DNA of 36,588 nt, taken from the NCBI GenBank assembly GCA_030647415.1, contig JAUSKB010000011.1, forward strand, positions 85,858 to 122,445, written 5' to 3'. A model generated the notes under the pieces. It saw only the letters and a list, made by a program, of their open reading frames with translations, searched no databases and was not told where the DNA came from. Below, piece after piece: positions 5,051 through 36,423 of this stretch. This DNA comes from a bacterium. Its GTDB lineage: Bacteria; Patescibacteriota; Minisyncoccia; UBA6257; GWB1-50-10. The position numbers and the translations under genes were made by a program. Position 1 is the stretch's first letter, and the number at the start of each line of letters is the position of its first letter.

Positions 5051-5086
5051 GAGGCGAAACCTCTGAAACCCCCGAGGTTTCGCCTC
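5051..5086. repeat. REP-like hairpin, copy A
   Basis: Perfect 13-base inverted repeat: GAGGCGAAACCTC (5051-5063) and GAGGTTTCGCCTC (5074-5086), with the ten-base loop TGAAACCCCC. It lies between the SIMPL gene and the HtrA start. The same arm core and the same loop length recur at 8273-8312 and 33513-33554, and half-elements flank the RAYT transposase gene at 34865-35518. Confidence 0.9.
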
Positions 5087-32799: not shown

Positions 32800-34731
32800 T
32801 CACTCGACCACGAGGTTCGCCTGGCACGTCGCAGTCGTGACCGCCCCGTCGGAAGACTGCTCGCGGTACGCGACGATGATGCTATATGACCCGGGCACCG
32901 CCGATGCGTCCGCGACGAAGTTCATGGTCGTGGACACATCACCGACCCCAAAGGGTGGGGTGAAAGTTGCGTGGATGCCGCCGGGGAGCTTGCCGGTAAG
33001 AAGCTGGAATGGAGCGCCGGGGTCGTTCGGGACCCGATAGACCATCTGGTTCGTCATACCACCGCGCGGGACGCCAACGGAGAACGGCTCGATGGAGCAC
33101 GCCTGGGAACCGATGGATGTAAATTCCGAATCGAGGAGAGGCACATTGGAGGGAATAGTGGTTACAATGGTGGGCTGTTCGACCTCACGTGGTTTCTTCT
33201 CCGCATCTTTATCCTCGTTCATGAGATCGGCAATTGAGAGCGAGCGTGTGTACCGCATCTCGAGAAACATGCCGTCTAGGTGCACCTCGGGGTACGGTTC
33301 CATGGTGGTGGAAATCCGTTCGATGCGAACCTGGAGGTGCGAAAGCGCATCAAGTGTCGTGATGGGTAGCTCGACGGTGAAATGCTCCCAGTTCGTGAGA
33401 TTGACCCTTCCAAGCTCGAACCACGTCCGCCCATCCATGCTGTAGGTTACTGCAAGGAAGTTCTCGTCCGGCACCACTTGAACCTCGACACGTTCGCTTG
33501 TCGAAGTGGCTTCCAGAGGCGAACCCTCTGTTGTTCCTGAGGTTTCGCCTCTGGGTTCGACTGGTGGTTGCTGCTCGCTGGATGTCGCATCAAACGGGAC
33601 GATGAGGGGGTTATCCGTCGAACCGGCTGGGGCGTTCGGGTCAATCAAAGGGGTTGGTTCCGTGGGAATGCGTTCGGTCGAAGTCGCCGGGGCAGGTTCC
33701 GCCGGAGGAGCTTCGGGTGCTGGCGGCGCAGTCACTGGCGGCTCATCAGCCGACGGAGCGACTCGTGGTGGCGTTTCGGGAGCGGGAGTTTCTGCGGGTG
33801 CCGACACCGGAGGATTTTCGGGTGGAGCTTCCTGCGCGTGGACCGCTCGTACAAGGCGCGCAAACAGCGCGGGCCTGCTTGATTGCGGTGCGGTCGATGT
33901 CGGTGCTGGTGGTTCGGAAGGTGCCGATTCCACCGGGAGCGGCTCCGAAACTGGAGGTGTTGGTTGTTCGTTTGTTGCTGGTGACTGCTCCGTGGGGGAT
34001 GATGTCGGTGAGACGGGTGGAATTTCCGAAACCGAAGGGGGCGGCAATGCTGGCGTCAATTGCCCGTCGGCCCCGACGTTTTCAGTCGGGGCTCCGACTC
34101 CAGCTTCGCTGGATGTCGGGGTCGTCAGTTGCTCGTTTGTCGTTTGTTCGTTTATTGCTGGCGACTGCCCTGTCGATGTCGCCGTGTTCGCCGCCTGTGA
34201 ATTATCCGCGTTCCCGTTGTGAGGTGTCGGTTGTAGGTCGTCTGTTACCGAAAGCACCCCCATGCGCCACACGATAGTGAGTCCTACCGAGTCGATTGAC
34301 TCGACGCTCGATGCCTCGAAAGACGGTGGAATGAATTCTCCACAAAAGATCGAGACACTCTCCGGGGCGATGTATGCCGACGTTTCCTCGGTAATTGCCG
34401 CACTGGAACTCCCCCACGATTCGGGGACGCTTTGCGCATGGCTGGCGTCGACCCAGGTGCCAAGACAGACGCCGGGGTAGAAATCCACGACTTCCGCATG
34501 GACCATGATGCCGGGCACCTGGAAGAACAGGGCGACGGCAAGCACAAGCGCAAGCGCCACCGCCTCGCGGCGGTATCGCCGCTCAATCGCCTTCCGCAGG
34601 TTCAGAATCGCAGGACCGCTGACGGAACTCCGGTCCGCCAGCCGATGGAAGCGCCACCACACGTGGTGGGGCTTTGTCGGTCGGACATCCAGCGTCCGTT
34701 TTTTTTGCTTCGTGCGACGAAAGAACCCCAT
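32800..34731 (-). CDS. Large membrane-anchored Pro/Thr-rich surface protein
   Basis: 643 residues. Arg/Lys-rich cytosolic N-terminus (1-53), one membrane segment (VALALVLAVALFFQVPGIMV, about 57-76), a beta segment (80-170), a long Pro/Ala/Thr/Glu-rich region (about 170-410), a lectin-like beta domain (VEVQVVPDENFLAVTYSMDGRTWFELG; VHLDGMFLEMRYTRS, 413-490), and a C-terminal beta domain like that of the next gene. The Pro-rich region carries a REP-like hairpin in frame (33513-33554) and other small palindromes. First gene of the surface run. Immediately upstream lies one of the 52-base repeats (34806-34857) with a TATAAT box that may serve as its promoter. Confidence 0.83.
   Translation of the reverse strand: MGFFRRTKQKKRTLDVRPTKPHHVWWRFHRLADRSSVSGPAILNLRKAIERRYRREAVALALVLAVALFFQVPGIMVHAEVVDFYPGVCLGTWVDASHAQSVPESWGSSSAAITEETSAYIAPESVSIFCGEFIPPSFEASSVESIDSVGLTIVWRMGVLSVTDDLQPTPHNGNADNSQAANTATSTGQSPAINEQTTNEQLTTPTSSEAGVGAPTENVGADGQLTPALPPPSVSEIPPVSPTSSPTEQSPATNEQPTPPVSEPLPVESAPSEPPAPTSTAPQSSRPALFARLVRAVHAQEAPPENPPVSAPAETPAPETPPRVAPSADEPPVTAPPAPEAPPAEPAPATSTERIPTEPTPLIDPNAPAGSTDNPLIVPFDATSSEQQPPVEPRGETSGTTEGSPLEATSTSERVEVQVVPDENFLAVTYSMDGRTWFELGRVNLTNWEHFTVELPITTLDALSHLQVRIERISTTMEPYPEVHLDGMFLEMRYTRSLSIADLMNEDKDAEKKPREVEQPTIVTTIPSNVPLLDSEFTSIGSQACSIEPFSVGVPRGGMTNQMVYRVPNDPGAPFQLLTGKLPGGIHATFTPPFGVGDVSTTMNFVADASAVPGSYSIIVAYREQSSDGAVTTATCQANLVVE
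33513..33554. repeat. REP-like hairpin, copy C, inside the Pro-rich surface gene
   Basis: Arms CCAGAGGCGAACCCTC (33513-33528) and GAGGTTTCGCCTCTGG (33539-33554), one mismatch, ten-base loop TGTTGTTCCT. Translated in frame. Confidence 0.88.
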
Positions 34732-34805
34732 GAATTAAGGTGTTTATTTTATTCTACCACATACTCGCCCGGCGGCAGTCACTAAAAACGGTACACATCA
34801 CTCAT

Positions 34806-34857
34806 GTGCCATCGCTCATATTATACCACAACAGATTCTACAGAGGCTTCGCCTCTG
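34806..34857. repeat. 52-base direct repeat, downstream copy (3' side of the RAYT gene)
   Basis: Same as 35512-35563 with one change (C for T). Contains a minus-strand TATAAT and ends in CAGAGGC-TTC-GCCTCTG, a half REP element. Confidence 0.92.
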
Positions 34858-34864
34858 TACCACG

Positions 34865-35518
34865 CTACCCAAAACTTAGCCATGAAAAAATGTCTGAAAC
34901 AAAATCGACCTCATTCGGGAAATATTTCGGGAATGAATCCCGTTCCAATACCGCCGCCGCCCGTCGGCGCTTCCCGGCATATTCCGGATAGCTCGAGTAC
35001 TGGTACTGTTCGATGAAGTCGAGTGCGGCGGGGCGATTAGCAACCCCTGAATCCCTCCATTCCGGATCGATGAGCTTCAGGGGGTTCAGGTGAATATACG
35101 CAAATAGGTATTTCAAATGTCGGTTTTTGTCCGTATGCACCGCCTTGAACACGCCCTGAAATAAGACACCGCTCCGCTTGTTCTTCGTGTTGAAATACAT
35201 GGTGTACGCGGTGGCAAGCTTCTGCATAAAAATACTTATGCCGTTCCCAACGCGTTGTCGAACGAGCAGATGAAAATGGTTGGGCATGAGACACCACGCA
35301 CCGATGTCGACCAGTGGAGCTCCACGATCGATGGCAAAAACCTCGGATAGGGGCATCTTTAGGTCGCGAATAAGCACCGGCTGACTGCCATTGCAAAGGT
35401 ATAGGAGCGCCACAAAACGATCGTAATCTCGCGAAGAAAGAAAAATCTTCCGCTTCTCAACGCCTCGGTTGTATAGATGGTAGTACTCACCGACAACAAA
35501 TGAGATCCGGCGTGCCAT
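34865..35518 (-). CDS. REP-associated tyrosine transposase (RAYT, IS200-like Y1)
   Basis: 217-residue single-strand DNA transposase of the TnpA-REP group, which cuts and moves REP hairpins. Evidence: N-terminal YYHLYNRGVEKRKIF (typical HxxNRG start), the HUH motif MPNHFHLLV with His81 and His83, the block GVLFQGVFKAVHTDKNRHLKYLFAYIHLNPLK with the likely catalytic Tyr near 141, and the late YQYSSYPEYAG. Length is normal. The ATG at 35518 is part of a 52-base direct repeat; TATAAT (35526-35531) lies seven bases before it. The REP-like hairpins at 5051, 8273 and 33513 share their right arm with these repeats, so they are the probable substrates. It appears intact. Confidence 0.9.
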   Translation of the reverse strand: MARRISFVVGEYYHLYNRGVEKRKIFLSSRDYDRFVALLYLCNGSQPVLIRDLKMPLSEVFAIDRGAPLVDIGAWCLMPNHFHLLVRQRVGNGISIFMQKLATAYTMYFNTKNKRSGVLFQGVFKAVHTDKNRHLKYLFAYIHLNPLKLIDPEWRDSGVANRPAALDFIEQYQYSSYPEYAGKRRRAAAVLERDSFPKYFPNEVDFVSDIFSWLSFG

Positions 35519-35563
35519 CGCTCATATTATACCACAACAGATTCTACAGAGGTTTCGCCTCTG
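35512..35563. repeat. 52-base direct repeat, upstream copy (promoter and start of RAYT)
   Basis: Carries the RAYT start codon, TATAAT (35526-35531) and the half REP element AGAGGTTTCGCCTCTGG. Repeat distance from 34806 is 706 bases. Confidence 0.92.
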
Positions 35564-36241: not shown

Positions 36242-36279
36242 GAGCGGGTAAGGGGAATCGGACCCCTGTCATCAGCTTG
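36242..36279 (-). repeat. Copy of the tRNA-Gly 3' half
   Basis: 38 bases matching 36352-36389 with one change, exactly 110 bases apart and in the same orientation. It contains the T-arm and 3' acceptor strand but no D-arm. Confidence 0.9.
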
Positions 36280-36352
36280 TCCCGCAACGATGCGGCAAGC
36301 GGAGCGAGCCCATCTGGTTGCGAGGATCCCGCCAATTCTGTCCTGTGGTGTG

Positions 36353-36423
36353 AGCGGGTAAGGGGAATCGAACCCCTGTCATCAGCTTGGAAAGCTGAGG
36401 TAATGCCATTATACGATACCCGC
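36353..36423 (-). tRNA. tRNA-Gly (TCC)
   Basis: Acceptor GCGGGTA/TACCCGC, anticodon stem TCAGC/GCTGA with loop TTTCCAA, T-arm AGGGG/CCCCT. CCA is not encoded. The 3' half is copied 110 bases downstream. Confidence 0.93.

Follow-up and report, generated by a model that had tools for sequence, protein, structure and literature searches.

The locus described here raises two questions: whether a RAYT transposase gene in a Patescibacteria genome forms a RAYT-REP system with the REP-like hairpins found around it, and how this gene came to lie between two copies of a promoter-bearing repeat. Genomes of Patescibacteria are very small, and the one carrying this locus comprises 0.96 Mb in 38 contigs. 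A first-pass annotation of the window (the whole stretch of 36,588 nucleotides that was analyzed) had answered the first question in the affirmative, and had proposed for the second that the gene arose or moved as a 706-base unit bringing its own promoter. The features on which our analysis relied are listed in Table 1.

The 217-aa protein encoded by the gene was matched by Pfam Y1_Tnp (E-value 3.7e-8) and by the NCBIfam model NF047646 REP_Tyr_transpos (E-value 3.4e-10), the latter with 40 bits, below its curated cut-off of 80. Judged by these scores, the protein is to be regarded as a relative rather than an equivalog of REP_Tyr_transpos. Its HUH motif (N80-H81-F-H83) and Y motif (Y141-I-H-L-N-P) showed little or no variation among 75 aligned sequences. 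An AlphaFold2 model based on 75 aligned sequences reached a pLDDT of 94; its C-terminus is helical, and no HTH family matched the protein. Searching PDB with the RAYT sequence gave no match, and the fold comparison alone gave one: the top Foldseek match of the model, and the sole one in PDB with an E-value of 0.001 or below, was 4er8_A (E-value 1.5e-6; TM 0.66 by target length), the complex of E. coli TnpAREP with a REP hairpin. RAYT is present in a single copy in its own genome. We also noticed a second, distant Y1 transposase (L006; G000:C38:15096-15443), which has inverted copies of AAAAGGGTGTCAGGAACCCTTTTT on both sides, a TIRYT-like arrangement. A viral origin of RAYT was considered and rejected, since a search of viral contigs found no relative of the query. 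In addition, a vestigial internal REP, GAGGTTTTTGCC at aa 59-62 (the site used by relatives), was not above chance in the window gene, as 314 of 500 codon shuffles scored as well.

Table 1. Positions in the window of the transposase gene, its flanking repeats and related elements
Feature	Position	Strand	Basis
RAYT/TnpAREP-like Y1 (HUH) transposase, 217 aa	34865..35518	-	Pfam, NCBIfam, AlphaFold2, Foldseek, motifs
Upstream 52-nt copy (hairpin + 15 nt + TATAAT + start codon)	35512..35563	-	sequence
REP hairpin CAGAGGCGAAACCTCTG, in -35 region of RAYT gene	35547..35563	-	sequence, DNA fold
-10-like TATAAT (extended TGTGGTATAAT), 7 nt before RAYT ATG, leaderless arrangement	35526..35531	-	sequence and family control
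Downstream 52-nt copy (hairpin + 15 nt + TATAAT), starts 7 nt past RAYT stop codon	34806..34857	-	sequence
REP hairpin CAGAGGCGAAGCCTCTG, directly past RAYT stop codon	34841..34857	-	sequence, DNA fold
-10-like TATAAT of downstream copy, 88 nt from ATG of surface-protein ORF	34820..34825	-	sequence
Promoter-like TGTGGTAGAAT, nearer to surface-protein ORF	34751..34761	-	sequence read directly
Inverted REP doublet (REPIN-like) GAGGCGAAACCTC-N10-GAGGTTTCGCCTC, intergenic	5051..5086		genome pattern search, DNA fold
Inverted REP doublet (REPIN-like), in frame in surface-protein ORF 32800-34731	33516..33551	-	pattern search, DNA fold

The anatomy of the repeats proved to be as first described. The two 52-nt direct copies are identical at 51 of 52 positions with a start-to-start spacing of 706, and the second copy was recovered from the genome by BLAST with an E-value of 3e-20, so the repeat is not due to chance. 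Both copies contain TATAAT, and the RAYT start codon (35516-35518) lies within the upstream one. In minus-strand order, each copy reads CAGAGGC-GAA-(G/A)CCTCTG, 15 nt, TATAAT, ATGAGCG, ATGGCAC; the hairpin CAGAGGCGAARCCTCTG thus opens the repeat in the direction of transcription, the 15-nt spacer ends in TTGTGG, and the one mismatch between the copies is inside the hairpin. Each repeat holds one REP unit, GAGGCGAARCCTC, and most other copies of this unit in the genome form inverted doublets. The two doublets in the window share the unit, in agreement with the earlier remark that the repeats end with the right arm of hairpins seen elsewhere. The same annotation spoke of half a REP element, which is correct insofar as the common doublet consists of two such units; however, each unit is already a full hairpin of 6-9 bp, with DNA folding energies of -5.3 and -8.4 kcal/mol for the two flank hairpins.

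Across the genome, GAGGCGAARCCTC was matched with at most 1 mismatch 50 times, compared to 3 times for a reversed control pattern. Thirty-eight of these matches pair into about 19 inverted doublets, approximately 23-28 nt apart (the REPIN layout), for example GAGGCGAAACCTC-GGGGAACCTT-GAGGTTTCGCCTC. A GTAG/GTGG foot, the hallmark of classical REPs, was not conserved next to the hairpins on the 5' side where it is usually found; flanks there read CC, TA, CA, etc. The occurrence of about 19 inverted doublets of the same core indicates that the locus is a real RAYT-REP system, and both this dispersal and the TnpAREP fold uphold the earlier view that a CPR/Patescibacteria genome contains a RAYT together with its cognate REPs. 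Given that the NCBIfam cut-off was missed and that the GT[AG]G foot is missing from the hairpins, RAYT is classed, on these sequence features, as a divergent TnpAREP-like subfamily. Elsewhere in the window, a 38-nt partial tRNA-Gly copy (36242-36279) occurs 110 nt from the tRNA-Gly gene (36352-36423), and resembles what element integration or decay at a tRNA may leave.

A second type of dispersed unit was represented by longer-stem hairpins (CAGAGG...CCTCTG), six of which were identified: the two RAYT flanks and C19:13635, C31:4165, C32:50385 and C33:11126. All six are followed by TRTAAT exactly 15 nt past the hairpin, and most of the spacers have diverged. On one side, similarity ends at the foot of the hairpin, and on the other directly past TATAAT, which implies a dispersed unit of about 40 nt; the 12 nt beyond it are common to the two RAYT flanks alone. 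One unit lies in frame and antisense (around 1478-1516) inside rnhB (RNase HII; L197:1145-1846, G000:C33), whose ORF is still open. With six occurrences, including this one, hairpin-15-TATAAT behaves, as far as its distribution tells, as a dispersed element of about 40 nt, and the absence of an evident use for a promoter inside rnhB makes insertion the best reading of the solo unit. Compared with most relatives, this RNase HII has about 10-12 additional aa in the loop concerned; the loop is variable, which counts against the difference as a sign of insertion. Another solo unit, with TGTAAT (L004; G000:C31:4141-4182), is upstream of typA/bipA and points toward it. The promoter-like sequence that the first-pass annotation had seen at the ends of the RAYT unit is confirmed, and the hairpin+TATAAT unit that holds it is dispersed, with four further copies. 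According to that annotation, repeats without any link to RAYT would argue against its proposal. This holds in part: hairpin+TATAAT units shorter than the repeat were found on their own, although mobilized REP units would look the same. A search of 244 genomes of the order detected the complete 52-nt unit in none but this one.

Of 238 genomes sampled from the class, 144 (60%) contained homologs of RAYT, with up to 12 per genome, and nearly all of 80 named homologs were from Patescibacteria. Since these genes have also been reported in Cyanobacteria, Bacteroidetes and other phyla (Quentin et al. 2018, PMC6006769), the previous statement that they are known mainly from Proteobacteria is too narrow. 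We analyzed 87 homologous loci with sufficient flanks, using permuted partners as a control. A sequence of at least 12 nt was common to both flanks of the same locus in 66 cases (2.6 with permuted partners) and to the upstream flank and its own ORF in 52 (3.6 when permuted), and 81 loci had at least one match of either kind. Palindromes agree within a locus and vary between loci. Their similarity increases with the identity of the proteins, a common REP being found in 2-3% of locus pairs below 50% protein identity and in 58% of those at 60-70%. The AGG-N-CCT core, also present in the window hairpin, occurred in 44/76 upstream palindromes versus 16/344 background palindromes. In each of eleven other genomes, AGGYCTTGCCT had 3-27 copies, many as doublets 19-33 nt apart. 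Cognate hairpins on both sides of the gene are thus ordinary for this little-described family.

In-frame internal copies of the palindrome were present in 35 of 71 loci. They map to loops or tails of the RAYT model, at aligned residues 53-61 before HUH (22 copies), at the C-terminus (15), at residue 89 (4) and at residues 160 and 184 (one each). Proteins with a C-terminal or residue-89 copy are longer there by approximately 9 aa, as expected for insertion; proteins with a copy in the 53-61 loop differ there by just 2 aa. In seven loci (L064, L069, L084, L087, L090, L093 and L094), two internal copies were observed, before HUH and at the C-terminus, with the palindrome also in the flanks. Two pairs of loci, each with proteins about 71-72% identical, were also of interest. 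L083 and L086 share the same internal insertion site, and palindromes differ between L091 and L099 while the copies within each of these loci agree; judging from their sequences, these patterns look like concerted change.

Promoter sites in this study are consensus matches. The distance of 7 nt between TATAAT and ATG suggests that the RAYT gene is probably leaderless. A -10-like hexamer was found at -16..-7 in 66% of RAYT-family genes, with a peak at -12, compared to 35% of other ORFs on the same contigs. The palindrome is located upstream of this hexamer (median -47..-20), its center mostly about 22 nt before it, which corresponds to the -35 position. In the flanks of L013-L119, about a third of the other ORFs of at least 150 aa also had such a hexamer at -16..-7, and leaderless transcription looks common in the class. 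The downstream 52-nt copy faces the surface-protein ORF, and had been proposed to drive the surface-protein genes; however, TGTGGTAGAAT is only about 20 nt ahead of the start of that ORF (ATG 34731), and with this nearer promoter-like site the downstream copy is unnecessary for the purpose. Promoter-carrying repeats on both flanks were rare, occurring in direct orientation in the window and inverted in L068, L062 and L041, and the long promoter-bearing direct repeat is an unusual trait of the window copy of RAYT.

We consider it probable that the locus is a REPtron in a Patescibacteria genome, i.e., a single TnpAREP-like HUH transposase gene with its cognate REP palindromes. The established parts of this reading are the anatomy of the locus, the dispersal of both unit types, the family-wide cognate palindromes, the leaderless position of the -10 hexamer and the predicted fold. 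The further parts, namely cutting, mobilization by this protein, autoregulation, and the direction and route of duplication, are put forward as a model. The non-autonomous units would be the approximately 19 inverted doublets GAGGCGAAACCTC-N10-GAGGTTTCGCCTC and the solo unit of about 40 nt with hairpin, 15 nt and TATAAT. The latter would also serve as the promoter of the transposase itself, with the hairpin at the -35 site and the transcript start at or next to ATG. In the likely mechanism, the hairpin would fold while the strand is single (on the lagging-strand template); RAYT would recognize the folded hairpin, cut beside it with Y141 and carry REP units to new sites, including in-frame positions in genes. 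The downstream 52-nt copy would then be a REP unit of this kind that arose by duplication of the upstream one along with 12 additional bases, and RAYT bound at the -35 hairpin would restrict its own expression.

The repeats could instead be the ends of an autonomous single-strand transposon of the IS200/IS605 kind, in which case the 706-nt stretch (52-nt repeat and RAYT) was inserted whole beside an existing hairpin-promoter unit. The near identity of the RAYT ends next to the diverged spacers of other solo copies, the start of the repeat precisely at the hairpin foot, the family maximum of 12 copies in one genome and the patchy presence of RAYT homologs (15/39 near relatives) are all consistent with such an element. 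It is nevertheless unlikely, as RAYT is single-copy here, most homologs have only the palindrome and no 50-nt ends in common between their flanks, flank repeats in the family are inverted (26) about as often as direct (30), and the Y motif is Y---NP (class 2) and not the Y---Q of IS200 (PMC6006769). In addition, an empty site could be defined neither with the 52-nt DNA in the 244 genomes of the order nor with the neighboring 198-aa gene, which was present in 36/42 family genomes; gene order around this gene is not conserved, and RAYT adjoined none of its 29 other loci examined. Movement of the gene as a 706-base unit was therefore not substantiated. The repeats can equally be accounted for by a copy of the upstream REP unit that duplication placed behind the stop codon, an arrangement that fits the usual anatomy of the RAYT family.

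It is quite improbable that hairpin+TATAAT is mainly a regulatory module (operator and promoter) selected at several genes, with the duplicate as a by-product of local duplication and no mobility. The constant 15-nt spacing despite diverged spacers, the unit upstream of typA/bipA and the family-wide hairpin in the -35 region would fit such a module, but the antisense copy within rnhB, the many doublets that have no promoter and the in-frame copies that the transposase genes themselves contain would not. That the palindromes are ordinary transcription terminators beside ordinary promoters in a compact genome is hardly credible: although downstream hairpins begin within 10 nt past the stop codon in 40/62 cases, a T run follows only 8/62, so that this reading was rejected for most loci, and the palindrome recurs in both flanks and in the ORF of a given locus and shifts with the protein.

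Within the REPtron reading, we tentatively raise a more specific possibility, which we hold to be rather doubtful: the solo REP may be a mobile promoter of about 40 nt copied by RAYT, with an extended -10 and a RAYT operator at -35, such that insertions gain both transcription and RAYT control, and palindrome, in-frame copies and protein specificity may change together across Patescibacteria. Searches of open-licence papers turned up no study of RAYTs or REPs in Patescibacteria. A RAYT family that keeps its own REP populations in 60% of the sampled class genomes, with the palindrome forming part of a leaderless promoter and, in half of the cases, of the coding sequence too, provides many independent protein-palindrome pairs and thus a readout of hairpin recognition by HUH transposases. 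The role of RAYT for its hosts, whether as an autoregulated housekeeping enzyme, a selfish element or a tuner of gene expression, becomes testable in small genomes.

Compared to known systems, the locus shares with IS200/IS605 the HUH/Y1 domain, hairpins at both ends and a promoter near the left end, but has no tnpB and occurs in single copy, in addition to the different Y motif (Y---NP, not Y---Q). Rickettsia palindromic elements, compared here by way of their citation in PMC3733652, are likewise short in-frame palindromic repeats in ORFs, as seen here in rnhB, the surface-protein ORF and the transposases; the system described here, however, has a cognate transposase family, and its core consists of a REP doublet or a hairpin-promoter. 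Subclass 2.1 (TIRYT) has the motifs NH[YF]H, FQ and Y[IV]HLNP (Table 1 of PMC6006769) and a C-terminal extension in common with RAYT, but was reported without REP-like sequences near the gene (PMC6006769), whereas cognate palindromes are nearly universal here. In-gene REPs have been reported for subclass 2.4 only, between HuH and Y (PMC6006769). Many relatives of RAYT similarly contain cognate in-frame REPs inside the transposase gene (the window copy has none), although these are mostly before HUH (aa 53-61, 22 copies) or C-terminal (15). The GT[AG]G 5' foot is typical of subclasses 2.2, 2.4, 2.5, 2.7 and 2.8 and absent from 2.6 (PMC6006769); its absence here places RAYT outside the former subclasses, but membership in class 2 stands because the foot is no defining trait of that class as a whole. 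With TnpAREP/RAYT and REPs/REPINs (class 2 TnpAY1; PMC6006769; Nunvar et al. 2010, PMC2817692), the locus shares HUH and Y---NP, flanking cognate REPs, dispersed inverted doublets and the 4er8 fold. It differs from them in having no GT[AG]G foot, an AGG-N-CCT core, REP copies in tens rather than hundreds, and a hairpin fused to a leaderless promoter.
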